Assembly: GCA_028718525.1 (NCBI GenBank) | Contig: JAQULP010000001.1 | Span: 65,406 to 129,405, forward strand | DNA length: 64,000 nucleotides | Direction of reading: 5' to 3' | Source: Sulfuricurvum sp. | Lineage (GTDB): Bacteria > Campylobacterota > Campylobacteria > Campylobacterales > Sulfurimonadaceae | Shown here: one piece after another, positions 9,951 to 30,176 of the stretch | How positions within the stretch are numbered: the first letter of the stretch is position 1 | How the letters are laid out: every line of letters starts with the position of its first letter | Notes under the pieces: model-generated | Told to the model about the DNA's origin: nothing | Seen by the model: only the letters and a program-made list of their open reading frames with translations | The model's database searches: none | Translations under genes and position numbers: made by a program

Positions 9951-10056
9951 TCGACCATGACGATGCGTAAAGACTTACGCGCGGCGCTGTGCCACAAAAG
10001 TTGTTACGTTGATTCGTATCTAGGCTCCTCCGTATCACCTTTACATATTTATTCCC

Positions 10057-10491: not shown

Positions 10492-10560
10492 GTTATTAGC
10501 CTCTTTTTTTCTTTTATCTATCGGGCAATGTGGAATTCACCGAGCATCATAATTTCACTT

Positions 10561-10637: not shown

Positions 10638-10768
10638 GAATACTTGCTATTGCATTCCAAGTATAAATAATAATAAAAACAATAAATAGTGATAATATAA
10701 ATAGAATCTATTAAATATTGATAAAAAACTCACTTGAAATTTTTACATGAAAGTTATATGATTATTTT

Positions 10769-14204: not shown

Positions 14205-15334
14205 TCAAAAAAGTCAAAAATCCGGCGGTCACTGCTTCGCGATTTTTGCTTATTCCAAAACCACTCCCCGACGAAATCCTCAGCTCATGGCTTGCACGAA
14301 CGGCATACGCTCATTTAACTCATCCCAAAACATTTATGAATATGCACTTTTCTACCGGAAAGTTCAACTGGAGGCCCAACTTCGATGCATCGGTATCTGA
14401 TGATGTGCTGCGTATTATTGAACGAAAAAGTACTCTTAGTTTTGAAACTATTTATCAGATGAGTCTCAAATCCTATGAGAGCTATCTCCAAGAATCGATC
14501 ATACCGGATGGTCTAAATACCTTTATCGTTCCTCAACGGTTCTGTCCAGTCTGTTTGCGAGAAGATCAATTCCCGTACTATCGAAAAAGTTGGAAAGTCC
14601 TTTTCACAACAGTTTGTTTCAAACATCACTGCTATCTTTATGATCGCTGTCCGCAATGCGGATCTCTGCTTAATCTTGCCAATATGTATCGCAATACTTT
14701 GTCGTTTGTGTTTTGTCACAAGTGTGGGTTTGATTTGCGAAAATCACGAAAGCTGACAGTGCCAAAAACATTTGATTCCGCGTTTAAACGAATGCAGCGA
14801 ATACAGTCAATTCTCAAAAGAGGCTATATTGTTCTCAATAAAATACCAGTTTACTCATTTTTCTTTTTTGAAGTCTTTGTACAGCTTGCCAAAATGATGC
14901 TCCCTTATAAAAAAAATGCTTCTATTGATCATCAATCAAAGATTATAAATATCACGAAAAGAACCCGTTTCACTAAAACTCAGCCTGTTATTCGGGAACT
15001 CAGTATTCCACAGCAATTTGTTGTACTGTCAGCTATTATGGAATTATTTAGACACTATCCAAAGTATTTTGAGCATTATGTGGAAAGCAATAATCTCACA
15101 CATTGGCTACTAACGAAAGAATTGAAAGAAAAAGCGTTTTGGTATGAAAACCTTTTGGATAAAGTGACTCCACAAACTTGTTTCACATCTGATTTATTGA
15201 CAGAACAAGAGATTCAAAATGCAGCTAAATGGCTAACTGTTCAAGGAATTATCGTCAATAAAATAATTTTAAAAAGACTATTTCAGTGTGATTTTTATCA
15301 TAATTCGATTGGAAAACATCTTTTCACAGAATAA
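14201..15334 (+). CDS. tniQ: TniQ/TnsD-family target selector
   Basis: 377 residues. The TniQ N-terminal region includes LPDEILSSWLARTAYAHL. Zinc-ligand pairs follow: FCPVC (115/118), CFKHHC (139-144), CPQC (150/153) and CHKC (172/175). The C-terminal 200 residues are probably the DNA-reading part. In Tn7-like elements this protein recognises the attachment site; here the site is inside dprA (TTCTT at codons 56-58), so this protein is the candidate dprA-recognition factor. It is longer than the roughly 300-residue TniQ of CRISPR-associated elements and shorter than Tn7 TnsD (about 508). Confidence 0.9.
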   Translation: MIKKVKNPAVTASRFLLIPKPLPDEILSSWLARTAYAHLTHPKTFMNMHFSTGKFNWRPNFDASVSDDVLRIIERKSTLSFETIYQMSLKSYESYLQESIIPDGLNTFIVPQRFCPVCLREDQFPYYRKSWKVLFTTVCFKHHCYLYDRCPQCGSLLNLANMYRNTLSFVFCHKCGFDLRKSRKLTVPKTFDSAFKRMQRIQSILKRGYIVLNKIPVYSFFFFEVFVQLAKMMLPYKKNASIDHQSKIINITKRTRFTKTQPVIRELSIPQQFVVLSAIMELFRHYPKYFEHYVESNNLTHWLLTKELKEKAFWYENLLDKVTPQTCFTSDLLTEQEIQNAAKWLTVQGIIVNKIILKRLFQCDFYHNSIGKHLFTE

Positions 15335-15434
15335 TCAAATCTGTAATGTTCCTTCTCTCGCATAAATTTTCCCCATATTCTTAACTCATTAATTACTTAT
15401 TGTATAGAAAAATACATGAATTCATACCCCTCAT

Positions 15435-15557
15435 AATATATATGTATTTTACATATATATTATTTATTTAACATACTATATATAATATATAAAGTAATAT
15501 ATATGTATTTAAGGCTACTATTTTGTCTAAAGCATAATTTTTTTATTTAAATACATA
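15435..15557 (+). promoter_or_regulatory. Clustered palindromic operator candidate upstream of the RADAR operon
   Basis: AATATATATGTA (15435-15446) and TACATATATATT (15450-15461) form a perfect 12-bp inverted repeat with a TTT spacer. The half-site recurs as AATATATATGTATTT (15496-15510) and, inverted and weaker, as AAATACATATTA (15549-15560). The array ends about 40 bases before a small helix-turn-helix gene, the first gene of the operon, which suggests autoregulation. AT-richness makes chance palindromes more likely than usual. Confidence 0.5.
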
Positions 15558-15597
15558 TTAATCAGCCTATTAAAGTTAAAAAGCTATACTCATAGGT

Positions 15598-15819
15598 ATG
15601 AAATATGATTTATTTAAAAAGAAACTACTTGAAGCAGGATTAGACAAGGAAAGCTTCTTATCTCTTACCAAAACGCCTAAAGGAACATATGAGGGTTGGG
15701 CATCAAAAAGGAATTTTAAAACTCCTTATTGGGTACAAGCCTATCTGGATTTGTATATTGAAAATAGAAATAATGAAATATATATTTCCAAGTTAAAAGA
15801 GGAACTAAATAAATCATGA
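15598..15819 (+). CDS. Small helix-turn-helix protein, probable operon regulator
   Basis: 73 residues. Residues 1-55 (LFKKKLLEAGLDKESFLSLT, then TYEGWASKRNFKTPYWVQAYL) look like the small Cro/phage-repressor-like proteins common in Campylobacterota plasmids and islands. The last four bases overlap the start of the DndC-like gene (ATGA), so it is coupled to the defence operon. It sits just after a cluster of palindromes that could be its operator. DNA binding is inferred from resemblance only. Confidence 0.6.
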   Translation: MKYDLFKKKLLEAGLDKESFLSLTKTPKGTYEGWASKRNFKTPYWVQAYLDLYIENRNNEIYISKLKEELNKS

Positions 15820-17324
15820 CTAAATCGATCGATACTTCAAATTTAGATAAGATACAATTTGAATCCCTTGCTAATAAACTCATGAATACTAAATCTATAA
15901 TCAAGAAAAATTATCTTAACGATCCTAGACCTTTTTGTGTGGCTTATAGTGGAGGCAAAGATAGTACGGCTGTAGTGTATTTAGTTTTACAAATGTTACA
16001 GGAAGTTAAAAATCAGAAAAAAATTGTATACATACTAAATTCTAATACTCTAGCTGAATTGCCTCCTGTTTTGGAACATATTCAAAAGTCATTAATCTCA
16101 ATTGAAAAATTTGCTCAAAAAAATAATTTGCCAGTAAAAGTTATTGAAGTTGTTCCTGAATTAAAAAATACTTTAAATGTTCAACTTTTTGGCGTAGGCA
16201 TGCCACCGCCTAGTCAAACATTACGTTGGTGTACAGATAAATTGAAAGTACAACCCATAGACAAAAAAATTCAAGAATTATTTCCTAATGGGGAATTTAT
16301 TTCAATTTTAGGCACTAGAAATGATGAAGGATACAAGAGACAAGAAAGGATTGAGCAAAGAACAGTAAAAGGGACAGATTTAAAATTAAATGACAGATAT
16401 CCAAAAGCTTCAAATCTTATGCCAATTGAGCATTGGTCGACAAAAGAAGTTTGGACTTATCTATTTGATCAAACAAATGAATTTATTGATATAGATTTTT
16501 TATGGAAACTTTATAGTGATGCGAGTAACAAAGATGCTAGCGAATGTACATTTGTAGGAGCTGGTGGAAAGCATATTGATGATGGTAAGCTAGGCTGTGG
16601 GACTTCACGATTCGGTTGTTGGCAATGTTATTTAGTAAGAGAGAAAGATAAAAGTTTAGATGGTTTAATGCAGAGTGGCTACAAAGATTTAGAACATTAC
16701 AATGCATTTAGAGACTGGTTTTGGAAGCTTACTCAACAAGGCTGGGAAAAAACAAGAGATGTCTATAATCATAGAATACATACGAGAGATTACTATGATA
16801 AAGGCTCAAGTGAAAGTGAAAAATATCATATGACAATGCCAAAGGGTCTTACATTGTCATTACGAAAAAAAGCATTTAAAAAATTTATTGAATTACAGCA
16901 AAAGATTCAAGAACCACTCATAACCATAGATGAATGCCTCTTGATACAAAAAAGATGGATACTAGAAGGTGATTTTGAATTATCGGCGTTTAAATATATA
17001 AAAAATATACCATTTAACCTAAACAGTTTTTCTCTCTCAAAAGATGATAGAACAAATCTTAGAAAAGCAAAAAATATTTATTTACTGTTGAAGAATGACA
17101 TATTTACAAGAAAAAATTACACTTTAAGCACTTTAAAACGTTTTTCAATACAATATGCTGTAAATAGTAATAAAATTCAACGTCAATTCTATCCAACTGT
17201 AAGAGAAGAAAAACATATACGAAAAGAATGGAAGTTGTTAAAAAAACTTGATCAAAATGTTCAAGAAAAAATTGAACTTTATGTTATCTATGAAAGGTTA
17301 TTAAATGAGCGGTGTAGTAAATGA
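15816..17324 (+). CDS. DndC-like PAPS-reductase-family sulfurtransferase in the RADAR operon
   Basis: 502 residues. A PP-loop ATP pyrophosphatase motif is present, AYSGGKDST (about 43-51). Cysteines at 139 (LRWCTDK), 261, 268 and 271 (LGCGTSRFGCWQC) resemble the four iron-sulfur ligands of DndC, and LGTRNDEG and YKRQER are also of that type. DndC activates DNA for phosphorothioate sulfur insertion, and BrxP of some BREX systems is in the same superfamily. No dndB, dndD, dndE or cysteine desulfurase is nearby, so ordinary phosphorothioation is unlikely. It overlaps rdrA by 20 bases, indicating a functional link to RADAR. Confidence 0.82.
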   Translation: MTKSIDTSNLDKIQFESLANKLMNTKSIIKKNYLNDPRPFCVAYSGGKDSTAVVYLVLQMLQEVKNQKKIVYILNSNTLAELPPVLEHIQKSLISIEKFAQKNNLPVKVIEVVPELKNTLNVQLFGVGMPPPSQTLRWCTDKLKVQPIDKKIQELFPNGEFISILGTRNDEGYKRQERIEQRTVKGTDLKLNDRYPKASNLMPIEHWSTKEVWTYLFDQTNEFIDIDFLWKLYSDASNKDASECTFVGAGGKHIDDGKLGCGTSRFGCWQCYLVREKDKSLDGLMQSGYKDLEHYNAFRDWFWKLTQQGWEKTRDVYNHRIHTRDYYDKGSSESEKYHMTMPKGLTLSLRKKAFKKFIELQQKIQEPLITIDECLLIQKRWILEGDFELSAFKYIKNIPFNLNSFSLSKDDRTNLRKAKNIYLLLKNDIFTRKNYTLSTLKRFSIQYAVNSNKIQRQFYPTVREEKHIRKEWKLLKKLDQNVQEKIELYVIYERLLNERCSK

Positions 17325-19872
17325 TGATCAGATAGTTATCGATATAGAGGATTCATTAGATGCAAGTGGAAGGTTTGAAACTAATAATCTATTGCAAAGA
17401 AAAGCAATTGGAAAGATAAAAAGACTTATAGAAAGTAGATTAGAAAAAGTAAAAATGTGTGATCATCAAGACTGTGAGAATGACAGAAGACATGATACTA
17501 TCACTATTTTAGGTGAAAGAGGAAGTGGAAAAACAAGTTTATTATTAAATTTAGAGACAATATTAGTGAAGCATAAAAAAGATCTTGTTTTTTTAAAAAT
17601 AATTGATCCTACGCTTTTCGAAACAAAGCAAAATATATTAGTTTCTATAATATCTTTGATAGCTGATAAGGTCAAAGACAAAAACAAAGAAGCGGATGAC
17701 GATTGGAATGAATCACTAATTAAACTGGCAGACGGGTTAAAGCTTTTGGATGGCGTCGGAAGTGATATCATAAAAAGTGATCTTTTCGATGATGGTACAC
17801 TCATACTAGAAAAAGGGCTTGATCATGCTCACTCAGGGTTAAATTTAGAAAAATATTTTAATTGTTATATTGTTAAAAGCTTATCTTTATTAGATCAAAA
17901 AATGTTCGTTGTTATTTTCGATGATATAGACACAAATATTGATAAGGGATGGATGGTTCTCGAAACAATCAGAAAATATTTAACATCTTGTCAGTTGCAA
18001 GTATTTGTTTCCGGGGATTGGGGACTATATTCATCACTTGTAAGAATGAAACAATGGGAAAACTTTGATAGAAAAATATTACCTGAAAAAGAGTGGCATA
18101 ACAAAGAAGATTTAATTGATCAACTTGAAGAACAATATCTAATTAAGGTATTAAAACCAGAATACCGAATATATTTAGAAAATTTATATCAATTAACCAA
18201 AAAACCAGAGCAAATTTTAGTAAATGGTTTTAATACAAATCCAATTAAAATAGATACGATTTATAAATATATTAGTCAGATCCTATTTAGGTTTCAAAAT
18301 GAATTTCAAACTCAAGATGTTTCAAATCTAATCAAACAGCTTCCCATGCGAACAAATATGAAAATACTTTATGCACAGTTAGTAAATCAAGAAGATGCAG
18401 AAGAACTCATTAATGCTATTAGTAATGTATTTATTACAAACACGGCTCGATTCAATTTTACACATTTAGATTATGAAAACTTATCCCCCAATGCTGTAAT
18501 ACAAGAAATGGCAAAAAAACTTTATTTGATTTCAAGTGATAAATTTTCTTTTCAAAAATTAAGTTATTTTCCCATGAATTTAAGTGATAAAGATTTGAAT
18601 TTACTATTGATGATAATTAATTTGCATTTGATGAAAACTATCGATAATCATATTAATACTTTTTTTGAATGGCTTACGAGATTTACATACTTAGAAATCA
18701 TAGGAAGAGAAATATATGATAATGACAAAAAAAATGAACTACTAAGTAACCTAAAATATGATTATATCATTTCCATGAAAGACCAATTAGATGAAATTGA
18801 TCAATATAGCAGAAGATCTGCAAGATCATCTATGCCAGGCTTTAGATTGACATATGCGCACGATGGTGTAGCAAAAGAACGCGGTTTTATTGGAGTAGAT
18901 AAATTTTTACTAAATGACAAATGCGATGAAGTTTTTTTATTAAGTATTATGTCTTCTAGAAAAAAATTAGCAGCCCATGCAGAACAAACAACTGTAAGTA
19001 TTATTAATATATTTGCATTTTTATCAGATTTCCTTCAAATTAGTAAAGATCAAGCAGAAACATATTTATTTAATATTTTCGAGATGTTTCATTATGCTGA
19101 GTCTGGATTATTTGATCCAGTTAAAAATAACGATATAAATGAAAATACATTATTTAAAAGTTTATTAGAATGGCATGCACTTAAAGAAGATATTAAAATG
19201 TTTTCTATCCCTCAAACGAATAGTATTTGGGAAGGTTTTCTTCAAAAACATGAACTTGAATTACAAAATAAAAAATTCATTACAGTTAAAGATTTTATTT
19301 CTACACAATGTATAATTTTTTTCAATTCTTTAATTACAGAGACGCTTTTTAATAGCAATATGACAACACCTTATAGTAGTATCAATACTACTACTAATTT
19401 AAATAGAAATATAGGAATTGCATATAATTTAGAGCAAACTTTTTATGATACAGAAAATTTGGATTTATTTAAATATATGTACATGTGCCCACTTTTTTAT
19501 TGTTTTATAGATGATGAAAAATATATAAAACCTGATAATAAATATTGGGTTGGGGAAGAGAATAAAAATCGTATTCTTACTTCTTTCAGTAAATTAGGTA
19601 TACATGGTGAGTCTATGAAAAAAGATCTCTCTGAGATTATCACGAAATATATAACTCTTAATGATTTAAGAAAAATTACGGACCTAGAAATACCTACTCT
19701 TGAAAATGTGATAGAACAAATTAAAAGTGCAGAAATTAGTAATTACGAAGATCTTTGGAATAAAATTAAACCTCCGAAAAATAGAATCACAACAGAAAGA
19801 GAAGCTATACTAAAACGTTTCATGACAAATGTTCAAAATGATATAAAAACAGATGATACATCAACTAATTGA
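17305..19872 (+). CDS. rdrA: RADAR defence ATPase RdrA
   Basis: 855 residues. A large P-loop NTPase of the KAP/STAND-like type: Walker A GERGSGKTS at 70-78, Walker B VVIFDDIDT at about 202-210, and a sensor-like FVSGDWGLY near 234. The N-terminal DASGRFETNNLLQRKAI resembles RdrA. In characterised RADAR systems RdrA assembles into rings that activate the adenosine deaminase RdrB during phage infection. The gene overlaps both neighbours by 20 bases. The assignment rests on size, motifs and pairing with a 751-residue deaminase; I ran no search. Confidence 0.85.
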   Translation: MSGVVNDDQIVIDIEDSLDASGRFETNNLLQRKAIGKIKRLIESRLEKVKMCDHQDCENDRRHDTITILGERGSGKTSLLLNLETILVKHKKDLVFLKIIDPTLFETKQNILVSIISLIADKVKDKNKEADDDWNESLIKLADGLKLLDGVGSDIIKSDLFDDGTLILEKGLDHAHSGLNLEKYFNCYIVKSLSLLDQKMFVVIFDDIDTNIDKGWMVLETIRKYLTSCQLQVFVSGDWGLYSSLVRMKQWENFDRKILPEKEWHNKEDLIDQLEEQYLIKVLKPEYRIYLENLYQLTKKPEQILVNGFNTNPIKIDTIYKYISQILFRFQNEFQTQDVSNLIKQLPMRTNMKILYAQLVNQEDAEELINAISNVFITNTARFNFTHLDYENLSPNAVIQEMAKKLYLISSDKFSFQKLSYFPMNLSDKDLNLLLMIINLHLMKTIDNHINTFFEWLTRFTYLEIIGREIYDNDKKNELLSNLKYDYIISMKDQLDEIDQYSRRSARSSMPGFRLTYAHDGVAKERGFIGVDKFLLNDKCDEVFLLSIMSSRKKLAAHAEQTTVSIINIFAFLSDFLQISKDQAETYLFNIFEMFHYAESGLFDPVKNNDINENTLFKSLLEWHALKEDIKMFSIPQTNSIWEGFLQKHELELQNKKFITVKDFISTQCIIFFNSLITETLFNSNMTTPYSSINTTTNLNRNIGIAYNLEQTFYDTENLDLFKYMYMCPLFYCFIDDEKYIKPDNKYWVGEENKNRILTSFSKLGIHGESMKKDLSEIITKYITLNDLRKITDLEIPTLENVIEQIKSAEISNYEDLWNKIKPPKNRITTEREAILKRFMTNVQNDIKTDDTSTN

Positions 19873-22108
19873 TATAGATATCTTAACTCCTTTAGCTTTT
19901 TTAAGTTCTAAAAGGCTTTTAGAAAGTTATAAGAAGGTATCTTTTTCAAATATTAAATCTATGAGAGACGATGTATTTCTATCTCAGAGAGAGTTACGAC
20001 ACGATTTACCTGATCAAATTCATGAAAATTTAATTGAACAGTTTTTTGAAGATAATAAAAAAGGTTTTTATTATTATGTCGGTAAGGCAGTTGAACAGAT
20101 ATCAGAAAAGTATTTTAAAAATCAATATATCAAAAAAGATTTGTATCTTAATTGGAATAATATTTTAACGTTAGTTCCCCCTTTACTCTTTAGTTCGTTT
20201 CCTTCTTCCCAAATAGTATTTCAAAATTCCTCTTTACCTATACCAAACGATAGTGACTTAAATTATTTGACAGAATTAAAGATGATTGAAACTCATATGC
20301 ACATCAATGGAACGTCTGAAATGATTTACAATTGGCATTATTTTTTGGATAACTTAGACCAAGCGTATTTAATTTTAAGAGATTCGTTCGCTGAAAACTC
20401 TATATTATTTAAACAGAATGGTATAAATGACATTAAAGGCTTTATGGACATTTTAAAAAAATCAAAATCTGTTTTTGAATACGTATTATATAAAATTATG
20501 TATGTTAGCAACGATTATGATATGTGGAAAAAACATTTCTCATCACGATTTATTTTTGAGAAAACTTTATTAGTAAGAATAGATGCAAAAAAAATACAAA
20601 ATCATAATAAAAGTATGAGTACTATCGAAAAGGAGCATCATTTCTATACTTTAATTTTTGATATATTTAAAAATGAAACAGACGAAACTAAAAAAAATAC
20701 CTATGCAGGATTACTACATTTTTATACATTAGCACAATCTTTATTCAACTCTTTATTCGTTCAACAATTAAATCAATATGGTTTTTCGCAGTTTCAAAGA
20801 ATTACAGATAGCAAATTAAGAGATATGTATGAGGATAGAGGGTTTAAAGATAGATACGAGCAATTAGAAGGTGCGAATAAAACTAATCTTTTAAAACATT
20901 TAGAGCTTAGATTTGCTCCTAAAAATAGTACCTATAAAACAGCAAAGTTATATTTACAAATAGTCAATGATTATGAAAAATATGGAAAAGATAAAAATAA
21001 AGAGCATGTCCCCTCTATTTCAATAACCTCTCATTTTATCAAGTATAAAGAGCAAAGTAATCCTAAGCATATTTATATGCGCGACGCTAAAACAAAAACT
21101 GAATTAAATAAAAGAGTAGTTTCAATAATGGGGTTATTATCTTTATCTAAACCAAAATATTTACCATCAAGTCATGAAAGTTTTACTCGCTTTCAGTATT
21201 TAAACTCTATTGATGCTGCTGGAAATGAACTTTATGCAAGACCAGAAGCCTTTGCTTCAAGTTTTAGATATATCAGAGAACAAGCAAAAAAAAGATTTGA
21301 CCGAGACATCAAAATTACTTTTCATGCTGGAGAAGATTTTGTTCATATCATTTCAGGCATTCGTTATATTTACGAAGCTGTAATATTTTTAAATATGCAA
21401 AATAGTGATCGAATTGGTCATGCGACGGCATTAGGACTAAGCCCAAAAAAGTGGAGAGAACAGCTCAATAATACAATTGTTATGAAACAAGGTGAGTACG
21501 TAGACAACTTGTTTTTTGTATTAGATATGCTACAAGACAATCAAAAATATCATAATGAATACACTTATCTTGAAAAAATATATAATGCGCGTTGCACAAA
21601 AGTATATGGTTCTACTTATAGTATAAAAAATTATAAAGCATTTTATACAAAAAAATGGATGAAAAAAGAGGAAGTGCATCGACAGCTCACAAAAAAACAA
21701 AATGAACTTTTCGATAAATACCATTCTATCCAAAATTATAAAAAATACAATCAACTTATCTCTATCAATATAGGTGAAATTTCAGATAATGTTATGAGCT
21801 TTTTACAAAATACAGTGATGGCATTGTTGAAAGAAAAGCAAATTGCTATTGAATCTATGATCACCAGTAATACAAGAATAAGTTTTTATACAAACTTTAG
21901 AGAACATCATATATTGTCATGGCTACAAAATCCTAATGCGACAGATATCGTATTAGCTTCTGATGATCCAGGAATTTTTAATACAAATTTATATTTAGAA
22001 TATTTTATTCTGAATCAATTACTACATGTCACGAGTTTTGATCAAAAAGCGATCATTAAAAAATTACTTTCCAATGGAGAAAAATATTATTTTAAACCTC
22101 ATAAATAA
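19853..22108 (+). CDS. rdrB: RADAR defence adenosine deaminase RdrB
   Basis: 751 residues, an adenosine-deaminase fold with long insertions. Metal and catalytic residues are intact: ETHMHINGT (His148, His150), HAGED (His491, Glu494), RIGHATALG (His523) and ASDDPG (Asp704, Asp705). RdrB forms a large shell and deaminates ATP/adenosine to inosine forms, and possibly RNA, to abort phage growth. It is coupled to rdrA by a 20-base overlap and ends the operon. All active-site residues are present, so it is expected to be functional. Confidence 0.9.
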   Translation: MIHQLIDIDILTPLAFLSSKRLLESYKKVSFSNIKSMRDDVFLSQRELRHDLPDQIHENLIEQFFEDNKKGFYYYVGKAVEQISEKYFKNQYIKKDLYLNWNNILTLVPPLLFSSFPSSQIVFQNSSLPIPNDSDLNYLTELKMIETHMHINGTSEMIYNWHYFLDNLDQAYLILRDSFAENSILFKQNGINDIKGFMDILKKSKSVFEYVLYKIMYVSNDYDMWKKHFSSRFIFEKTLLVRIDAKKIQNHNKSMSTIEKEHHFYTLIFDIFKNETDETKKNTYAGLLHFYTLAQSLFNSLFVQQLNQYGFSQFQRITDSKLRDMYEDRGFKDRYEQLEGANKTNLLKHLELRFAPKNSTYKTAKLYLQIVNDYEKYGKDKNKEHVPSISITSHFIKYKEQSNPKHIYMRDAKTKTELNKRVVSIMGLLSLSKPKYLPSSHESFTRFQYLNSIDAAGNELYARPEAFASSFRYIREQAKKRFDRDIKITFHAGEDFVHIISGIRYIYEAVIFLNMQNSDRIGHATALGLSPKKWREQLNNTIVMKQGEYVDNLFFVLDMLQDNQKYHNEYTYLEKIYNARCTKVYGSTYSIKNYKAFYTKKWMKKEEVHRQLTKKQNELFDKYHSIQNYKKYNQLISINIGEISDNVMSFLQNTVMALLKEKQIAIESMITSNTRISFYTNFREHHILSWLQNPNATDIVLASDDPGIFNTNLYLEYFILNQLLHVTSFDQKAIIKKLLSNGEKYYFKPHK

Positions 22109-22121
22109 TTGCAGCAAACTA

Positions 22122-22895
22122 TTATTTTAACGCAATCTTACCATTCCTTATTTCAATTTTTCCACTGAGCTCTGCCTCAAAAACTCGATCTGCAAACTTT
22201 ACTACCGCTTCTTCATACGTTGGTCGTGTAGCGCAAAACAATATAAACGGATCACTTTTATCAATCTCAGAATTTACCATTCCGAATTTTCCTACAAAAG
22301 TATCGATATCATAAATAGCCTCGGCTTTTCCATCAGCTAATAATCTATTACTTCCTTCGCTCTCACCAATCCGATGCGGTAGAACATAAATTTTCTTCCT
22401 CATCTCCAGTGCGAATTCGACACTTCGCATACTCCCACTGTCAATATCCGCTTGTGTAACGATCAATACCTCTCCGAGTGCAACGACAACCTCGTTACGC
22501 ACCACAAAGCTCCAGTTCGTTGCTTGAAACCCCGGATCAAACTGACTTATAGCCAAACCGCTATTCTCTATGTTTTCCAATAACGATTTATTGACTGCTG
22601 GATAGCGTAAATCGATCCCACAAGGCAAAACTGCGATCGTACTATCATTTCCTGCTCCTCGATGAGCTATCGCGTCTACACCCATTGCTCCACCGCTTAC
22701 AATGCATATTCCAATCCTCGATAATTCACTTGCTAAACGATGTGTCATCTGTTGAGCATATTGATTTGGCTTTCGACTGCCGATTATGGATACTTTTCGT
22801 CGGGTCAATAAATCAAGATTGCCTTTATAATACAGATTTTCGGGATATTTTTTCATCGAGTCAAGTTCGGAAAGATGATGTTCAATTGTGTGCAT
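22122..22895 (-). CDS. dprA: Second, intact DprA carried by the transposon
   Basis: 257 residues, full length, aligning end to end with the interrupted host DprA: SMKKYPENLYYKGNLDLLT versus SMKRYPEKLYSRGNLNLLT, then SGGAMGVDAIAHRGAG and SGSMRSVEFALEM. It has the DprA Rossmann-like domain and, like other Campylobacterota members, no long C-terminal domain. The ATG at 22895 matches the host start. It lies on the same strand as the host gene and converges on rdrB, 13 bases apart. It probably restores RecA loading in transformation and recombination. It differs clearly from the host sequence, so it came from another strain or species, not from duplication in place. Confidence 0.95.
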   Translation of the reverse strand: MHTIEHHLSELDSMKKYPENLYYKGNLDLLTRRKVSIIGSRKPNQYAQQMTHRLASELSRIGICIVSGGAMGVDAIAHRGAGNDSTIAVLPCGIDLRYPAVNKSLLENIENSGLAISQFDPGFQATNWSFVVRNEVVVALGEVLIVTQADIDSGSMRSVEFALEMRKKIYVLPHRIGESEGSNRLLADGKAEAIYDIDTFVGKFGMVNSEIDKSDPFILFCATRPTYEEAVVKFADRVFEAELSGKIEIRNGKIALK

Positions 22896-22922
22896 CAATA
22901 GCCCTGTAGAGTATTTTTGAAA

Positions 22923-22969
22923 AGTATACCTACGTTGAATATATGTAGAAATTTTATGTCAAATTGTCA
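22923..22969 (-). promoter_or_regulatory. Promoter of the carried dprA, collinear with the host dprA promoter
   Basis: On the minus strand, TGACAATTTGACATA (22969-22955) lies 26 bases before a -10 box TATACT (22928-22923), which is 27 bases before the ATG. The host dprA has the identical 15-mer and TATGCT at exactly the same distances. The whole promoter was therefore carried with the gene. Confidence 0.75.
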
Positions 22970-23005
22970 ATTTTTTGAGGGGAAAATCAAAAAATTATTT
23001 ACCAT

Positions 23006-23050
23006 TTTGGTATATAAACTATTTACTGATTTGGTATATAAAGTATTAAC
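23006..23050. repeat. Two 21-base direct repeats, 24-base period
   Basis: TTTGGTATATAAACTATTTAC (23006-23026, 21 positions) is repeated at 23030-23050 with three differences, in the non-coding gap between the carried dprA promoter and the gene at 23067. The start of each shares TTTGGTATATAAA. Function unknown; possibly an iterated binding site. Confidence 0.5.
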
Positions 23051-23066
23051 CAAAATATTAAATATC

Positions 23067-23447
23067 TCAGCCTCTATATTTTTCTTTATAAGCAAGAACT
23101 GCACCGTCATGTAGATGGAAAATCGTACCATCTTCACCGATAGAAGCCTCTTTAACGCACACATAGCCTTTATTAATGAGAAGAGGTCGATACAGACCTT
23201 GATCCATGTTTCCAACACTCCATACACTCTTTTTCCCCTCAATTTCATCTTCAAATTCGATGTGATATTGAGGAAATAAATAGGTCATGATTCTAATAAA
23301 AACTTTTGGTGGTATTTGGCGAACAGACATCCGATCGATGTTTTTATTATCTTGTGTGTAATATCGAAATTCACCAAGTTTTAAATTTGGAATTGTACCT
23401 ATCCCTTTGTCCCCATTAGTATGACCAACTTGTTTCAGAGTATTCAT
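23067..23447 (-). CDS. Hypothetical protein, 126 residues
   Basis: The ATG at 23447 has GGAG six bases upstream. No signal peptide or membrane segment. The middle holds VRQIPPKVFIRIMTYLFPQYHIEFEDEI and the end GTIFHLHDGAVLAYKEKY; no family recognised. It lies downstream of the nuclease-helicase on the same strand with a 130-base gap, so it could be a partner gene or independent. Overlapping longer frames here (for example one with LYTK repeats from the 24-base repeat region) look non-coding. Confidence 0.55.
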   Translation of the reverse strand: MNTLKQVGHTNGDKGIGTIPNLKLGEFRYYTQDNKNIDRMSVRQIPPKVFIRIMTYLFPQYHIEFEDEIEGKKSVWSVGNMDQGLYRPLLINKGYVCVKEASIGEDGTIFHLHDGAVLAYKEKYRG

Positions 23448-23575
23448 TTTTTTCTCCAAATGACAAAATAATCAAATGATAGCACTATCAGAGCAATGAT
23501 TTATCTTTATATTACGGTGATGTGTAAATAAAATTTATTTAAAATAAAACTCATTTATAAAATTGTAAATAGATT

Positions 23576-25072
23576 TTATTTATTCAATATGTTCAGACAT
23601 CTTTCCAGGAGTTCACTGTTATTGATTATGACAATATGGAGTTTTTTTCTAGTTCTCGTGATGTTCTGAAAGAGCATTTTTACAGGATGGTAATATGCAC
23701 TGCCTCTGTACATCAATTTACCTTTGTCATTATAAAAAAAATGCCTATCAATTGTCACAGCGACTTTATCATATTCTTGCCCTATAACTTTATGTGAGGT
23801 GTCTGCGGTATATAAAGCATATTGCTCATGATGTTCTTGGTTATATTGTGAAGGCGTAAAACGGATAACTTCCCATCCTTGATCATCCAATACTGAGAGA
23901 AATTCTTTGGCATCATCATTATTGCTGAAATAGTTCAATTCAATATTGTTTTCATTTGAAAGCGTTGAGTTCTTATTCTTATCGAATAGCATTTTAATAA
24001 AAGATGCTATTTCTTTGTTTGTTCGTATTTTTTCTGATAATTCATAAGAAACAATCGAAGGTATTTCACTAATTTTTTGAGCTATATTATTTCCTTCTTC
24101 CTGTAGAGATAAAGTTTGAGCATTATCGTATGAAAAAAGGCAATTTCCATTCATAGATTGAATTTGTTGAACAATTGCTACAAGTTGATTTGCGTAGATT
24201 CTTTGTGCTTCATCTATGATCACTAACGCATAATGAGAAAAATTATAACCACTGTAATGCTTTATTGCTGTGATTGCCCAAGCATGCTCTTGAGTCAGTT
24301 TCATTTGCCCTTCATTTAGATATCCACAATGAATAATCAATACATTCTTTCCACTTTTCTTTATTTCTTTAGCAATATCGTAAGTTAGCAACGTTTTACC
24401 TGTGCCGGCACTGCCTGTAATTGAAATAAAATTAGCTTTTGAAAAATCCTTTATGATAGTTAAAATATTTGTTTTCAGTTCTTCTTGTTGATGTGTTAAG
24501 AAGTATTCATTTTGAATAAACTTTTCTGTTGAGTTAAAGGGGGACACCAAGTAATCTGAAGGGTCAAATATTTTATCGACATTATCTAAGTAAGCAACTT
24601 GTTGATCAAGTAAGAATTTAATCAAATATGAAAAATCTACTTCTATGATTTTGTCTTCATCATTTAGAAAATACAACTTTTTTTCATCTGCAACAAATGT
24701 AAAGGCATATATTTGCTTCTCTATAAAACTTAAATAATATCCATTCCGTTTTAGTTGGTTAAAAATTTTTTCTTCTGTACTACTGTTTTTTAGCTCTATA
24801 TTAATTACACAACTGTCGCCAAAACGTAATAGATCGAATTCTTTACCTATTTGAGGGATTTTATAACTTACGTAAAATTGACTGAAAATGCTTCTTTCTG
24901 CTGTCCCATCATACAAAATGGTTACTAAAGAGTTTAGATCATCTACTTCTTTATCTTTAATAGTTATACCATAGTGCTCTAAAAAGTTTTTATAGTTTAC
25001 TTCTTCTAAAGTATCATACGATTGAACTAGTGATAATAAATTTATATTTTTCAATATATTTCCTCTATACAT
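23576..25072 (-). CDS. Nuclease-helicase (DUF2075-type, PD-(D/E)xK N-terminus), probable defence gene
   Basis: 498 residues. The N-terminal part has KEFDLLRFGD followed by NIELKNSS (Asp80, Glu93, Lys95), a PD-(D/E)xK nuclease-like arrangement. A superfamily 1-like helicase/AAA domain follows: Walker A TGSAGTGKT (219-227), Walker B LVIIDEAQR near residue 285, arginine-rich ELSEKIRTN, and a C-terminal VIGQEYDKVAV plus ITRTRKKLHIVI motif. Similar proteins (DUF2075, Schlafen group 3-like) are common in defence islands. A TTG start at 25054 with AGAGGA six bases before it is an alternative to the ATG used. Transcribed towards the 126-residue gene. Confidence 0.75.
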   Translation of the reverse strand: MYRGNILKNINLLSLVQSYDTLEEVNYKNFLEHYGITIKDKEVDDLNSLVTILYDGTAERSIFSQFYVSYKIPQIGKEFDLLRFGDSCVINIELKNSSTEEKIFNQLKRNGYYLSFIEKQIYAFTFVADEKKLYFLNDEDKIIEVDFSYLIKFLLDQQVAYLDNVDKIFDPSDYLVSPFNSTEKFIQNEYFLTHQQEELKTNILTIIKDFSKANFISITGSAGTGKTLLTYDIAKEIKKSGKNVLIIHCGYLNEGQMKLTQEHAWAITAIKHYSGYNFSHYALVIIDEAQRIYANQLVAIVQQIQSMNGNCLFSYDNAQTLSLQEEGNNIAQKISEIPSIVSYELSEKIRTNKEIASFIKMLFDKNKNSTLSNENNIELNYFSNNDDAKEFLSVLDDQGWEVIRFTPSQYNQEHHEQYALYTADTSHKVIGQEYDKVAVTIDRHFFYNDKGKLMYRGSAYYHPVKMLFQNITRTRKKLHIVIINNSELLERCLNILNK

Positions 25073-25374
25073 CTACCAGTAACATCTTTAACCACTTGAT
25101 ATGACTATTAAGTTATTCCCATAATATGTCTTTTGAGCAAAAAATCATAGTTGGATAAGACATCATACGTGTCCACTTATTTAAAATCCTAACTCAAAAT
25201 TTCATAAATAACATATTTTAAAAATTTCACTACTCATTCCAACAAAGAACATAACATTTTAAATAAAACAGCGACTACTTGTCTTTCTAACTTATAGCAA
25301 AAGGAAAAAATGCCCTGAAAAGAGAGATTATCTCTATACGTACATCTATTTATCTGCTAAAAATTATTAGTTTG
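25073..25374. other. Non-coding gap, about 300 bases
   Basis: AT-rich intergenic stretch upstream of the nuclease-helicase and downstream of the small zinc-ribbon gene. A possible -10 (TATTAT, minus strand) lies near 25120. No open frame, repeat or RNA structure worth naming was seen apart from a short AGAGA/TCTCT palindrome near 25325. Confidence 0.4.
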
Positions 25375-25611
25375 TTATTTCTTTTGCTGGGCAAATACAA
25401 TAAGCTGCCACTCTATTTTACCGGCTCCAGGTGCATGCTGATGATGATTCTGAGGTGGCAACTTGTGCCCTTTTGCAATACCAATTTCATCGCCACAGGC
25501 TACGCAACGATAAATTCCTGCATTTGGTGCTTCACTACCTGGCGCATGCTTAGTATCGTAAGCAGCGTTATCAGACTTATTAAGGTAACTTCCATTCTTA
25601 TATTGAGCCAT
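25375..25611 (-). CDS. Small zinc-ribbon protein ('protein L' type)
   Basis: 78 residues: KNGSYLNKSDNAAYD, then IYRCVACGDEIGIAKGHKLP, then a QNHHQH cluster and an IEWQLIV end. The CxxC pair and histidines suggest one bound zinc. It closely resembles small proteins I recall being annotated only as 'protein L' in Proteobacteria; their function is not known to me. AAAAGGAT precedes the ATG and a TATAAT (minus strand, 25649-25644) lies about 33 bases upstream, so it is independently expressed. Confidence 0.75.
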   Translation of the reverse strand: MAQYKNGSYLNKSDNAAYDTKHAPGSEAPNAGIYRCVACGDEIGIAKGHKLPPQNHHQHAPGAGKIEWQLIVFAQQKK

Positions 25612-25643
25612 ATCCTTTTCTCCATATATTAATATATCACATT

Positions 25644-25649
25644 ATTATA
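25644..25649 (-). promoter_or_regulatory. -10 box of the zinc-ribbon gene
   Basis: TATAAT on the minus strand in the context TTGTATAATAATG, 33 bases before the ATG at 25611. No convincing -35 element. The remaining gap to 25918 shows no other feature than an AT-rich leader for the lipoprotein gene. Confidence 0.45.
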
Positions 25650-25918
25650 CAAGAAATACACTAAAGTCAGAAAAATTATAAAATCTTCATAAAACGCCAA
25701 TATCATGCACAAAGATATCAGCCTTTACTAGCCACTATACTGGCGAAGTTGTGAAAGTATTTATCCACTCATTTTTGAGCTTTTATTAACTATTAGTATT
25801 TAGCTGTAAAAGAATACTCAAATTTCCATTTAGCGGTTTTAAACTTAGTATTTTATGTTTAGATTAATTATAAATAATGTACGATTTAGCTACTATTCCC
25901 TAATGAAAAGGTTTGAGT

Positions 25919-27061
25919 ATGGGTAAGCATTTATTAATTTTATTTGGGATTGGCGTTTTTCTATCAGGGTGTGCAAACTTAAATTCAATTGCTCGTGATT
26001 TTAATATTAACGAAGGACAGGGAAAATTAATTGATGCCAAACAAAGAGCAATAATTGTGCATCAAAGACCCGAAACAAACCAAACTGTCGTATGTGCTGA
26101 ACCTAGTCCAGATGCACTGTCGGCTTATGCAATGCAATTAGCGTTAGAAGGAAATATTCCAAATAATGTAGCCGGCAAAATCGCCACTTCACTGCAAGAG
26201 GGAACTTCATTTACTGGTTTGCGAACCCAAAGTATACAATTACTTAGAGATGGCATGTTCCGAAACTGTGAAGCATACGCTAATGGCGCGATCGATAAAG
26301 ACGAATATGCCACAGAATCTAGAAGATATCAACGAAATATGATTGCATTATTGGCAATTGAACAATTAACGGGAGCCATAAGAGTCCCACCTATTGCAAT
26401 TACGACCGAAGGAAACGTAGAATTAGGTAAATCATTAAATGATCTACAAATGCAATCCGACGCATTACAACAAAAAATAGACGAAATAAAAAAAGAAATT
26501 AGTGATACCGACATTAACGATACAAAAAAAGGTGTACTAGAATCCCAAGTGGCCAATTGGGAGCAAAATAAAAAAGCTATAGACAGTGCAATAGTTAATT
26601 CCAGAGATATTTTAACAAATGGCAAAAGTCAAATTTCTATAAATGAAAAGTCTCTTGATCCAAATCGTAGCGATGCCCATATTCAAGCTGTTGCAGATAC
26701 AGTTTATAGGATTTTCAAAGATCTTAATGGAGCAGATGATTTTGAAGCTTTATGTCTTACATATTTAATAAATTATGAAAACACTGGCAAAATGAAATCA
26801 TCAAACATAGCTAAAGTTTGTGAACAACGCTTGGAAATTAAAAACAAATATTTTGAAGCTTCTATCAATGTCAATAAGAACATAGTAGATGTAAGTAACC
26901 ATTATCTATCTTCAAGCCAAGCACAACAAACAAAGGCTGGTATTTCACAAGCTTTAAAAAATTTAAATGATGCTGGATCAAACTTGTTAAATTTACAGGG
27001 CTTAAAAGCTGCAAAAGATATGGGTGTGGCAAAGGCTAGAAATATTTTAAATGATCAATAA
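25919..27061 (+). CDS. Lipoprotein of unknown function
   Basis: 380 residues from the ATG preceded by AAAAGG. The signal peptide ends in a lipobox LSGC (Cys18), so the protein is expected to be membrane-anchored outside the cytoplasm. VVCAEPSPDALSAYA and FTGLRTQSIQLLRDGMFRNCEAYANGAI are highly characteristic stretches that I recall from a widespread family of uncharacterised lipoproteins. Residues about 180-250 are predicted coiled coil (LQMQSDALQQKIDEIKKEI). It may protect or modify the cell envelope, but this is not established. It overlaps a 66-residue frame. Confidence 0.7.
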   Translation: MGKHLLILFGIGVFLSGCANLNSIARDFNINEGQGKLIDAKQRAIIVHQRPETNQTVVCAEPSPDALSAYAMQLALEGNIPNNVAGKIATSLQEGTSFTGLRTQSIQLLRDGMFRNCEAYANGAIDKDEYATESRRYQRNMIALLAIEQLTGAIRVPPIAITTEGNVELGKSLNDLQMQSDALQQKIDEIKKEISDTDINDTKKGVLESQVANWEQNKKAIDSAIVNSRDILTNGKSQISINEKSLDPNRSDAHIQAVADTVYRIFKDLNGADDFEALCLTYLINYENTGKMKSSNIAKVCEQRLEIKNKYFEASINVNKNIVDVSNHYLSSSQAQQTKAGISQALKNLNDAGSNLLNLQGLKAAKDMGVAKARNILNDQ

Positions 27062-27251
27062 GTTTAAACAGTTTATGGATTATGTTCAAGATATTTACAT
27101 CATGGACATTTATCTGGCTGGCAAACTGGATGAACTCTCTATATTTTTCTTTAATGTCTGGCTTTTCTATGTGTACTTTCTTACAAACGCACATGTATTA
27201 AAGAGTAAAATTGAATTTATCAATGCAATTTATGATCATAAGCTGAGCTGA
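27051..27251 (+). CDS. Possible small membrane protein, 66 residues
   Basis: Starts with an ATG overlapping the end of the lipoprotein gene by 11 bases. One hydrophobic segment (LSIFFFNVWLFYVYFLT) could span the membrane. No homologue recognised and no strong ribosome site, so it may be a chance frame. If real it would be coupled to the lipoprotein. Confidence 0.3.
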   Translation: MINKFKQFMDYVQDIYIMDIYLAGKLDELSIFFFNVWLFYVYFLTNAHVLKSKIEFINAIYDHKLS

Positions 27252-27256
27252 TCAAG

Positions 27257-27325
27257 CTAACAAATAAGAGGCAATCAATCAAAAACCAGCGAGTGGATTT
27301 TTGATTGATCATTTTGAACGTTATG
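27257..27325 (+). repeat. attC-like hairpin 5' of the HNH gene
   Basis: A 12-bp perfect stem, ATCAATCAAAAA (27274-27285) with TTTTTGATTGAT (27298-27309), is bracketed by CTAAC (27257-27261) and CGTTATG (27319-27325), resembling the outer core sites of integron attC recombination sites. A related sequence occurs after the HNH gene at 28132. A simple transcription terminator is the alternative. Confidence 0.4.
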
Positions 27326-27378
27326 TGACCTGAATAATTCATTTTTTAATCCTTAAATTTTTATGGAGTAGTTTATAA

Positions 27379-28134
27379 ATGGCAAAATGTTACTTCCCTG
27401 GATGTGAATCGCACGCAAGTACAAAGGAGCATATACCACCTAAATCATTTTTTCCAGATTCGAAAAAAATAAATTTGATGACGGTTAAATCATGTAAGCT
27501 ACATAATAATGAGAAAACAAAAGATGATATGTATGTACTTGCAAATATTTGCTTAAATAGTATTACTGAGACTGAAAATGATGCATCAAAGGTATTTGAA
27601 TCTAATGTAAAGCCTCAATTAATGCATAACAACGAAGCTCTTTTAAAAAAAGTTTTTCGGAATCCAACAAAGCACGATGAAAAGACTAGTAGATTCGAAA
27701 TTGACATTTCTCGGTTAGATTCATTCTTTGACTGCCTCACACATGGAGTGATTTACAAAAAAGTAAATAAAAAAGTAGTGTTAGAAAATTATAACGTTAG
27801 ACATTTATATATCAATCTTGAAGATATAGACAAAGATGGAAATGTTGATAAAGATAGTATTTTTATGAAAAAATATTGGCAAGAATATCTTGAATCCGTT
27901 GAATTATCAGAAGTTATCGAATTTAAGTATGAGACTCCAAAAGGGTATAGTACAGAAATCTATAGCGTGCGTTTTATAGGCGCCGATTTTATAAAATCTT
28001 TGGAATCTGATTCTTTTAACTCTTCTATAACTGTTGTACATAAATTTTTTGGATATTTTGTAGTTGTGTCATTGTTAACTAGGATTGTATCTTTTGCTAA
28101 TACCCCTATTCATATAGCACCGAAAAATACATAA
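27379..28134 (+). CDS. HNH-type nuclease-like protein
   Basis: 251 residues. The N-terminal 50 residues form an HNH-like zinc motif: CYFPGCES, then STKEHIPPKSFF, then SCKLHNNEKTKDD, with two cysteine ligands and the EH and HN catalytic pieces in order. The remainder shows no named domain. Such proteins are restriction-like or single-gene defence candidates. GGAG precedes the ATG by about 12 bases. The stop codon is built into an attC-like repeat (TAACAAAA), as is usual for integron gene cassettes. Function as a nuclease is inferred. Confidence 0.65.
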   Translation: MAKCYFPGCESHASTKEHIPPKSFFPDSKKINLMTVKSCKLHNNEKTKDDMYVLANICLNSITETENDASKVFESNVKPQLMHNNEALLKKVFRNPTKHDEKTSRFEIDISRLDSFFDCLTHGVIYKKVNKKVVLENYNVRHLYINLEDIDKDGNVDKDSIFMKKYWQEYLESVELSEVIEFKYETPKGYSTEIYSVRFIGADFIKSLESDSFNSSITVVHKFFGYFVVVSLLTRIVSFANTPIHIAPKNT

Positions 28135-28185
28135 CAAAATAATGGAGACCAATCAAAAAGCTATAAACAGTAGGAATAATTGTTA
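28132..28185 (+). repeat. attC-like repeat 3' of the HNH gene
   Basis: The 28 bases at 28132-28159 match 27258-27285 at 21 positions, including TAACAAA at the start and CAATCAAAAA at the same offset of 18. TAACAA and TTGTTA (28180-28185) form the outer arms. It overlaps the HNH stop codon and also lies at the end of the convergent tnsE-like gene, so it may double as a terminator. Confidence 0.4.
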
Positions 28186-28190
28186 CCTTT

Positions 28191-29870
28191 TTATTTTACT
28201 CTCAATATTCTTGCAATCACAAGCTCACACCACCCCTCAATCTCTTCATCATCCACATCTCCTTTTTTATGATCTTTATGATCAAATAGCAATCCATAGC
28301 GATTAAAAACATACTCTTCAAATTTGTTATAAGTTGGTTCATTCCCAATGTAATATTCAACTAAATCTTTCATATCATCTGATGTATAGATTTCTGCTGA
28401 TTCTTGCGCAATAAACATCCATGTAGAAGGTCCCCAAGCCCTATCATGCTCAATTTCAACAATATAAATATCTTTATTGTCGTAATTTAAAAGACCGAAT
28501 AAGAATTTTCTCGACTGATCTTGCTTCCCATATAAAATAGCTTTACTTTTTATACTCTTTCTATTTTTATTGTATATAGCTTTTATTTCAAATGGTCCTA
28601 CTAATTGTTCACCATCGACACCGGCATACGTCAAAAGCCCTTCATAAAACTGGTAAAAATCCTGAAGATTAAAAATTTCGTTTTCTACACTACTCTCTTC
28701 AGGTTCTCCATTTACAACATGAGCTTGACCAAGGTTTTCATCACCATCATTCGAAGCATCTTTTAGAGAATTACCAATTTTCTTATCACTTTTTGTGTAA
28801 ACAATTTCCGCTTCATTGCCCTGGTAAATTGTTTCACTAACGACTTTTACATTGTTCTTATAATATTCGTCATCACTTCGCGTGTACAACGTATAAAGCA
28901 AATAATCATTGGATGGTGTACCTTCATAGATTTTATTATCCCGAGTTGCTTTGACCTTTTTAATCCGCTTTTTCGAATTCTTTTTTATCTTCAATAATTC
29001 TGGTTCAACTGTTTTTGGATCTTGCTTTTCACTGTATTGTTTATAATGCAACTCTTCAAATCCTAAATATGAATTGTCTGAGTGAATATTCAACACTACA
29101 TACTTAGGTAGTCCGCGCTCATCATTTCCGACACATATATACGAAGTGTAAATGTCAAATGAGTTTTTCACGGGGAACTGTGCTTTAATTTGCTGAAACG
29201 GCTTCTTATTGTTTCTTTGTGAAGTGAGGTACTTAAATCTCGACTGAGCATATGTGCTTCCCGCAAAGCGTGCAATAAATGGTATATCTTTTTTATTTGC
29301 TTTCTTTTTTGCATGAAACCTTGCCAATAGTGGTCCATCTTCTTTAGCCTCGGTATTAAAAGACCCTTCATAGTAAAGGTCAGCAAGCACCCCGCGCATC
29401 GCTGCATGTTTAAATGCCGAAGATAGAAAATAGAATCGATTAGCAATAGCATAGCAAGGTATGATCAACATACAATCATCATGTATCTCGACATGTGCAA
29501 ATTGCCGTAAATAGTATTTTTTGACTTCACCATAACTAATCAACTCAACATCATTTTCAGTAAGCACTGTTGAGATTTTTACAAGTGGCTGAGCATAATT
29601 GTCGTTGACATGAAATTCACCTTTAAGCAGACTCTTGTTTTCTCCTACATGTTCACCATTTGTATAGATATGACCTATTTTATACTTGTAACGCATCATT
29701 TCAGGTGCAATCTCATATGAACGAAACTTACCGGTTTTAATATTTTTAAAAATACCCTTGTAATTGTAAGGGGATTCGATCATATTAATATCTGTAACAG
29801 TGATAAATTCTAACGGTTGATTTCTATATTGGTCAAAAAAGACAGGTTTGTGTTGAAGGAGATCAGCCAT
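28191..29870 (-). CDS. Probable divergent TnsE-like transposition protein
   Basis: 559 residues from the ATG at 29870, preceded by a strong GGAGGA seven bases upstream. Its first codon is 59 bases inside the right terminus, reading inward. The length is close to Tn7 TnsE (about 538), and the last 20 residues (EEIEGWCELVIARIL) resemble the C-terminus I recall for Tn7 TnsE (EDMEGWAERVVRE). In Tn7, TnsE directs insertion to replicating conjugative plasmids via the sliding clamp. No nuclease or ATPase motif is visible; a basic KIKKNSKKRIKKVKA stretch lies mid-protein. Unlike Tn7, it is separated from tnsABC by 13 kb of cargo. Similarity is remote. Confidence 0.6.
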   Translation of the reverse strand: MADLLQHKPVFFDQYRNQPLEFITVTDINMIESPYNYKGIFKNIKTGKFRSYEIAPEMMRYKYKIGHIYTNGEHVGENKSLLKGEFHVNDNYAQPLVKISTVLTENDVELISYGEVKKYYLRQFAHVEIHDDCMLIIPCYAIANRFYFLSSAFKHAAMRGVLADLYYEGSFNTEAKEDGPLLARFHAKKKANKKDIPFIARFAGSTYAQSRFKYLTSQRNNKKPFQQIKAQFPVKNSFDIYTSYICVGNDERGLPKYVVLNIHSDNSYLGFEELHYKQYSEKQDPKTVEPELLKIKKNSKKRIKKVKATRDNKIYEGTPSNDYLLYTLYTRSDDEYYKNNVKVVSETIYQGNEAEIVYTKSDKKIGNSLKDASNDGDENLGQAHVVNGEPEESSVENEIFNLQDFYQFYEGLLTYAGVDGEQLVGPFEIKAIYNKNRKSIKSKAILYGKQDQSRKFLFGLLNYDNKDIYIVEIEHDRAWGPSTWMFIAQESAEIYTSDDMKDLVEYYIGNEPTYNKFEEYVFNRYGLLFDHKDHKKGDVDDEEIEGWCELVIARILRVK

Positions 29871-29914
29871 GACTGATTCCTCCATTATCACTAATTAATG
29901 TACATTCTCGTTTT

Positions 29915-29929
29915 TTATTGGAAATGACA
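29915..29929 (-). repeat. Right terminal inverted repeat
   Basis: Reverse complement TGTCATTTCCAATAA, identical to the left end. Further in, AATTAGTGATAATG (reverse complement of 29883-29896) is the counterpart of the left-end internal repeat. Confidence 0.93.
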
Positions 29930-29934
29930 TTCTT
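29930..29934. repeat. Target site duplication, right copy (TTCTT)
   Basis: TTCTT directly outside the right terminus, equal to 6474-6478. Confidence 0.95.
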
Positions 29935-30102
29935 TGAAAGCTCAAAAGTGATGGCGCGTGTATAAGGATTGGGACGACGTGTACCGACAATGGATATTTT
30001 AGGCTGAGTTAGTAAATTAAGGTTCCCGCGGGAATATAGTTTCTCCGGATAACGCTTCATCGAAGAGAGCTCGGGAATTGTCCACGAAATTTCATTATAC
30101 AT
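29930..30102 (-). pseudogene. dprA: DprA, 5' part of the host gene cut by the transposon
   Basis: Encodes the DprA N-terminus MYNEISWTIPELSSMKRYP to RAITFELSK, including KISIVGTRRPNPYTR, the start of the nucleotide-binding fold. Past the insertion point the frame runs 22 codons into the transposon end and stops at 29863, giving a truncated product of about 80 residues. A GTG start at 30114 is also possible, but the ATG matches the carried copy. The 3' portion is at 5870-6478. It lies just downstream of the deacetylase and ilvC, the usual neighbourhood of dprA in this phylum. Confidence 0.95.
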
Positions 30103-30129: not shown

Positions 30130-30176
30130 AGCATACCACTTACTGTAAATATCAAAAAAACTATGTCAAATTGTCA
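30130..30176 (-). promoter_or_regulatory. Promoter of the interrupted host dprA
   Basis: On the minus strand, TGACAATTTGACATA (30176-30162) begins with the stop codon of the upstream deacetylase; TATGCT (30135-30130) is the -10 box, 27 bases before the ATG. The spacing is identical to that of the carried copy. It is expected still to fire and transcribe into the transposon end. Confidence 0.65.

Follow-up and report, generated by a model that had tools for sequence, protein, structure and literature searches.

A Tn7-like element that splits dprA in a Sulfuricurvum-like bacterium and carries a divergent dprA as its probable replacement

Tn7 encodes TnsA, TnsB, TnsC, a TnsD/TniQ protein and a TnsE protein, generates a 5-bp duplication at a fixed target and inserts harmlessly downstream of glmS. 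Tn7 spares its target gene, whereas the element described here cuts dprA. Tn6022-type Tn7-like elements and Tsy also disrupt a transformation gene at a conserved coding motif; they differ in selector (TnsF) and target (comM), and the available part of the source mentions no replacement copy (PMC10293859). AbaR/Tn7-like insertions in comM of Acinetobacter, another host with another target, likewise entail the loss of a transformation gene and are discussed as genetic conflict, again with no replacement gene mentioned in the available text (PMC11472951). Disruption of transformation genes by mobile elements is usually interpreted as selfish blocking of DNA uptake.

A replacement gene is known from Vibrio cholerae S24, in which a genomic island termed the recA mobile element (RME), reported in 2014, lies in recA and brings a divergent recA (PMC4405046, available in part). 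RME occupies one site within a DNA-recombination gene and supplies an entire, divergent version of it, preceded by the usual LexA site; its authors propose that this copy offsets integration damage (PMC4405046). The element in our window (the whole 64,000-nt stretch of DNA analysed) similarly lies inside a gene and brings a complete, divergent copy of it with an upstream region. The two differ in that RME is an integrase-type genomic island targeting recA, and the present element is Tn7-like and targets dprA. Furthermore, the accessible text describes one RME, whereas the dprA arrangement recurs and coexists with relatives devoid of a replacement. The preliminary description of this locus knew of no Tn7-like element with a target-gene replacement strategy. 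In the literature searched, partly in excerpt, we found no dprA-inserted Tn7-like element, and the word dprA is absent from the main text of PMC10293859 and of a survey of Tn7-like cargo (PMC8649781). The claim holds to this extent, but the strategy itself has a precedent in the V. cholerae recA island (PMC4405046), and dprA replacement is therefore not a wholly new kind of strategy.

The element and the split host gene

The element spans 23,451 bp (6479..29929), as delimited by matching terminal repeats and a 5-bp duplication. Its terminal inverted repeats are located at 6479..6507 on the forward strand at the tnsA end (29 nt, beginning with TGTCATTTCCAATAA and 86% complementary to the opposite end) and at 29901..29929 on the reverse strand at the tnsE-like end. 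They are flanked by the two copies of the target-site duplication TTCTT, at 6474..6478 and 29930..29934, respectively. The host dprA, encoded on the reverse strand, is split into a 5' part (29930..30102), the last five bases of which are the duplication, and a 3' part (5870..6478), the first five bases of which are the duplication. In silico, the host dprA becomes a single open frame of 258 codons once the element is taken out along with one TTCTT copy. A genome-wide search of the assembly, which is 83% complete, found the carried copy and the two host halves as the only dprA matches. A Tn7-like element thus splits the host dprA of this Sulfuricurvum-like bacterium; the ORF, Pfam and restored-frame evidence bears out what had been noticed at the outset, an intact dprA inside the element and a broken one around it.

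The forward strand encodes tnsA (10769..11416; PF08722 and PF08721), tnsB (11320..13272; PF09299 and rve), a tnsC of the TniB family (13269..14204; PF05621) and tniQ (14201..15334; PF06527), a TnsD-like target selector whose relatives fall into target-specific groups in the TniQ tree. The features of Tn7-like elements are present, namely a heteromeric TnsA plus TnsB transposase, a TnsC-type AAA regulator, a TniQ/TnsD selector, terminal repeats and a 5-bp target duplication. At the opposite end lies a tnsE-like gene (28191..29891, reverse strand). Its relatives are located near the end of elements in both dprA and argJ, and in most examined elements of the window's TniQ clade; none was detected in the analysed stretch of G420. 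The domain TnsE_C (PF18623) is precomputed for 4 of 86 homologues of the tnsE-like protein, and direct Pfam scans of five members placed it below the cut-off in three and found it absent in two, including the window copy, which gave no significant Pfam match at all.

Judged by its predicted genes, the cargo is partly defence-like. It comprises DndC-like, RdrA-like and RdrB-like genes with overlapping ends (15816..22108, forward strand) and an Nhi/AbiO-type helicase (23576..25072, reverse strand). The three forward-strand genes at 15816-22108 resemble a divergent RADAR system in which a DndC-like gene is the third member.

The carried dprA (22122..22895, reverse strand) encodes 257 residues from an ATG at 22895; the listed TTG at 22898 gives one residue more. 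Its product matches PF02481 (Rossmann domain) at E=1.6e-54, and its best solved relative is H. pylori DprA, with which it shares its layout, the Rossmann fold starting at about residue 3 and being followed by a C-terminal domain; residues 212-252 are matched by 6gw7, a DprA C-terminal piece. The carried and host proteins align end to end but are diverged, in agreement with the preliminary description, with 144 of 258 aligned columns identical (56%). Against the NCBIfam equivalog TIGR00732 the carried copy scores 171.1 bits, under the cut-off of 191.15 bits. Given that the four other carried copies described below (162.6-176.1 bits) and the native single DprA of G462 (168.8 bits) also fall under it, this cut-off does not discriminate here, and the DprA assignment is based on the Pfam family, the full-length alignment to native DprA and the tree.

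Relatives inserted in dprA, with and without a second copy

Relatives were collected by TniQ searches of three overlapping sets: 42 of 398 genomes in the order matched at E<=0.001, 18 of 228 in the family at E<=1e-30, and 12 of 397 in the class at E<=1e-100. After scanning the genome contigs around the matches, 80 of 105 loci were kept. DprA was searched in sets of 30 and 18 genomes, with at least five genomes duplicated between labels, and in 41 genomes of the genus. Viral contigs yielded no TniQ relative. A split dprA was resolved in 13 distinct Campylobacterota genomes, the window's included, at two positions 99 nt apart. Site A is used in eight genomes: G000 (the window), G398 (also G460), G399 (also G463), G400, G420, G320, G207 and G120. 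Site B, 99 nt further on, is used in five: G184 (also G403), G260, G213, G182 and G027. In another genome, G453, dprA is split and lies next to a tnsE-like gene; this genome is too fragmented to class and is excluded from the 13. At all 12 loci checked (window included; G420, which was not joined, stands outside the 12), the two dprA breakpoints carry 5-bp duplications on either side of the element, and removing the element with one duplication leaves a single open dprA frame. The insertions look recent, since the empty-site frame is open in every one of these loci. The ComEC frame is open in all 13 split genomes.

An extra complete DprA is encoded in five of the 13 genomes (G000, G398, G399, G400 and G184). 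The carried gene is on the contig of an element end in G000, G399, G400 and G184, and shares a contig with tniQ in G398. Searching the assemblies of the other eight revealed no dprA besides the two halves; the completeness of these genomes is 99-100%, and three of them (G207, G260 and G027) consist of one or two contigs. Replacement is therefore facultative, an obligate one being rejected by the same count, and any benefit of the carried dprA has not fixed it. The preliminary description had asked whether dprA-inserted elements always carry a dprA, and had named relatives without one as evidence against its reading. Such relatives exist, which tells against "always" and not against the reading of the window element. 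Carriers belong to host families f1 (three) and f6 (one), with no family given for G400, and non-carriers to f9 (five), f20 (two) and f1 (one). As carriers and non-carriers are largely found in different host families, host biology is confounded with carriage. Nevertheless, relatives in the same gene differ in bringing a replacement, so that the payoff of blocking versus preserving transformation is open to comparison.

A DprA profile run over the other kept TniQ loci, up to 10 kb on each side, gave no full-length DprA and one weak partial match, in L042 (E=0.0012). Among argJ-type elements, no DprA was found in those of G493, G482 and G582, which are complete with duplications, or in a nearly complete copy in G335; the dprA-versus-argJ contrast rests on these four elements. 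Further pairs of TniQ and DprA matches, seen without context and uncounted, suggest more carriers. Second DprA-like genes in G127 and G493/G402 are located on contigs other than those of tniQ.

Origin and likely role of the carried dprA

In a tree of 89 DprAs, from which two short database rows were omitted, the native Sulfuricurvum DprAs form a clade of 16 rows (100/100) that includes the three Sulfuricurvum hosts. Their carried copies form a separate group (92/88), and the copies of G400 and G184 are placed elsewhere. After removal of six natives and most database rows, a 50-row tree again gave three separate positions for the carried copies. A single ancestral carried dprA for all five was rejected (AU p=0.000446); G400 and G184 as one clade or capture was not (p=0.069). 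The carried dprA is of another allele lineage than the host's, and by these tests the captures number at least two and probably three. The native locus of G462 (L236:10140-10910), where there is no element, also has a dprA of the carried group (76%). This dprA is the only copy found in that genome, which indicates that the carried allele type can be the sole DprA; it may represent the donor allele group or a later replacement. The G399 element has a broken C-terminal dprA scrap (L163:9655-9780), nearest to carried-type DprAs, as a sign of dprA turnover.

Pairwise comparison of the three Sulfuricurvum carried copies gave dN/dS values of 0.086-0.126 at dS of 0.43-0.61, low ratios indicative of purifying selection. 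Near-invariant native positions, defined as those conserved with at most one exception across 30 natives after two divergent natives were dropped, are retained 48/48 in each of the five carried copies, all of which are open. The complete ORFs common to the G000, G399 and G398 elements are tnsA, tnsB, tnsC, tniQ, the tnsE-like gene and dprA only (ORFs of at least 90 aa, E<=1e-5, 30% coverage), apart from small frames inside shared genes and partial matches of two ORFs adjoining dprA; the G398 element spans three contigs, about 4 kb of one lying outside this comparison. Between G398 and the window, the tnsE-like proteins are 49% identical and the carried DprAs 91%. On this comparison, dprA behaves like a core gene in the window element's own clade.

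The region upstream of the carried dprA (22896..22969, reverse strand) and that of the host gene have in common a 15-mer, TGACAATTTGACATA, located about 75 bp upstream in both cases, at 22955-22969 and at 30162..30176 (reverse strand), respectively; the latter overlaps the stop codon of the gene upstream. In both, the 15-mer is followed by 26 nt, a -10-like hexamer (TATACT in the carried, TATGCT in the host gene) and 27 nt to the ATG, as counted by eye. The exact TGACAATTTGNCATA occurs at two places only in the 1.94-Mb assembly (83% complete), both upstream of dprA, so that the sharing is not accidental. This arrangement had been taken for the carried gene's own promoter, collinear with that of the host. 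The shared 15-mer and spacings stand, but a promoter is not established: with 28 nt between the TTGACA of the 15-mer and the -10-like box, the distance exceeds that of a normal -35/-10 pair. The 15-mer was rejected as a -35 box on this ground, and a conserved upstream motif is the better description. A role as the site of a wider regulon was also rejected, since the 22 matches at up to two mismatches are about as many as the 20 of the reversed control.

Across 27 native loci of the genus (the 30 returned by the genus DprA search minus the three carried), the best 15-mer match always lies 68-77 nt before the start. It scores at least 13/15 in 18 loci, six of them exact, and 10-12 in nine, for which position alone, with no shuffled control, argues against chance. 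The three Sulfuricurvum carried copies match at 15, 15 and 14 of 15 positions. By these alignments, the 15-mer is a genus-wide dprA upstream feature rather than a copy of the window host's promoter, and hence the carried dprA seems to have been captured together with its control region. For the carried dprA of G400 and G184, no motif of this type was found in the 100 nt upstream, and dprA sits closely behind the tnsE-like gene. The 15-mer at 30162-30176 is a possible dprA-specific control site in the genus.

We consider it probable that this Tn7-like element breaks dprA and carries a replacement that takes over the DprA role, as an optional and repeatedly evolved answer to a disruptive target site. 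In this model, a Tn7-like transposon of a Campylobacterota clade, with TnsA, TnsB, TnsC, TniQ and a TnsE-like protein, inserts at a fixed position in dprA, TniQ presumably acting as the selector of the site. The full-length dprA of the element would have been taken from a chromosome together with its control region. The carried DprA would most likely take over DNA protection and RecA loading; the host would stay transformable, and the element would pay little for a harmful target. Related elements have captured other dprA genes separately, and many relatives do without, leaving their hosts without any detected DprA and presumably with a loss of transformation. The earlier proposal of a destroyed target and a functional substitute is thus supported for the window by the split gene, the intact dprA, purifying selection, the upstream motif and recurrence, and fails as a rule in view of the eight genomes without a second copy. 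The arrangement suggests a way in which a conserved protein-coding sequence can serve as a target while the host is spared ruinous damage.

Whether the carried protein serves the host or the element is not separable from sequence alone. It might act for the element by protecting incoming single-stranded element DNA and loading RecA on it, or by working with the TnsE-like protein. Indeed, dprA is downstream of the tnsE-like gene on the same strand in G000, G399, G400 and G184 (the two are on different contigs in G398), directly behind it with stop and start overlapping or touching in G400 and G184, and B. subtilis DprA was found to increase Hfr conjugation of E. coli, according to the part of that study available (PMC12386762). 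However, a role in the element's own use should not depend on the target, and dprA is absent from eight dprA-inserted relatives as well as from three complete and one nearly complete argJ-type elements, which makes such a role unlikely. An accidental pick-up at the dprA locus, where proximity eases capture, would leave a passing passenger of no benefit, as might be read from the eight of 13 genomes without it and from the broken second dprA in G399. Purifying selection on the carried copies, at least two captures of whole genes, the openness of 5/5 copies with all near-invariant residues and the fact that dprA is common to the elements and other cargo is not render this quite improbable.

The PADLOC model of ShosA, a DprA-like antitoxin, matches the carried dprA at E=3.8e-47, and the other cargo is defence-like, so that dprA could be a ShosA-type defence gene in chance company with that cargo. 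Yet the carried protein scores 159 bits against H. pylori DprA and only 66.6 bits against the solved ShosA chain, no ShosT match was found among the 10 element ORFs scanned, which include the neighbours on both sides, and no other complete cargo ORF was found to be common, whereas dprA is; we regard this origin as highly unlikely. We give hardly any credence to a carried DprA that dampens transformation, holding down competence and protecting the element from removal. A pneumococcal prophage does raise host DprA, thereby lowering transformation (PMC12637031), but the competence switch-off of S. pneumoniae is tied to an N-terminal SAM domain (PMC4489622; both sources available in part), the carried protein has the H. 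pylori layout, and non-carriers would block uptake more simply. Replacement of the broken host gene accordingly remains our preferred reading.

Target sites and TniQ

All seven aligned site-A hosts share the insertion position to the nucleotide, and all five site-B hosts agree to within 2 nt. Site A directly precedes the codons of the VSGGAxGVD motif, and this targeting of a conserved coding motif resembles that of comM in the available account (PMC10293859). The idea that the carried copy escapes the target site by divergence, which the preliminary description linked to immunity, was examined on both sides of the insertion. In the 57 nt to the right, host-carried identity is 0.51-0.68 for the four site-A carriers, overlapping the host-host range of 0.56-0.81 (seven chosen from 21 host pairs). 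To the left, host-carried identity is low (0.44-0.51), yet falls at the 3rd-24th percentile of windows within the gene pair, and the site-B carrier G184 has nothing unusual on either side. Other DprAs share the residues NQYA found left of the insertion, with NQYT, SKYS and further variants occurring as well. These comparisons do not establish that the carried copy is immune through its divergence.

The argJ-type relatives (L230, L233 and L234) are inserted at the argJ stop codon with 5-bp duplications, ArgJ being called by Pfam in one element and by likeness of proteins in two; the argJ label of G335, G422 and G275 comes from the TniQ group alone, insertion at argJ not being seen there. In these elements argJ lies on the tnsE-like side, whereas the target gene of Tn7 lies on the tnsA side, and TniQ may thus read either side of the insertion. 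In the TniQ tree, with distant TniQs as the outgroup, the argJ elements (100/100) and the site-B elements (100/99) each form a single group, and site-A sequences surround both. This topology suggests a move from dprA to argJ, with a root made unsure by long branches.

More tentatively, one transposon clade may have found three answers to a harmful target. In one, dprA would simply be broken and the host would lose the use of incoming DNA, a loss that may also keep transformation from removing the element. In another, a replacement would be carried in the core of the element. In the third, TniQ would be retargeted, initially to another position in dprA and later to the end of argJ, where insertion does no harm. 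If true, the TniQ tree and the repeated captures would constitute a natural series on trading host damage against element security. In G335, the argJ-type element is present as two near-identical copies.
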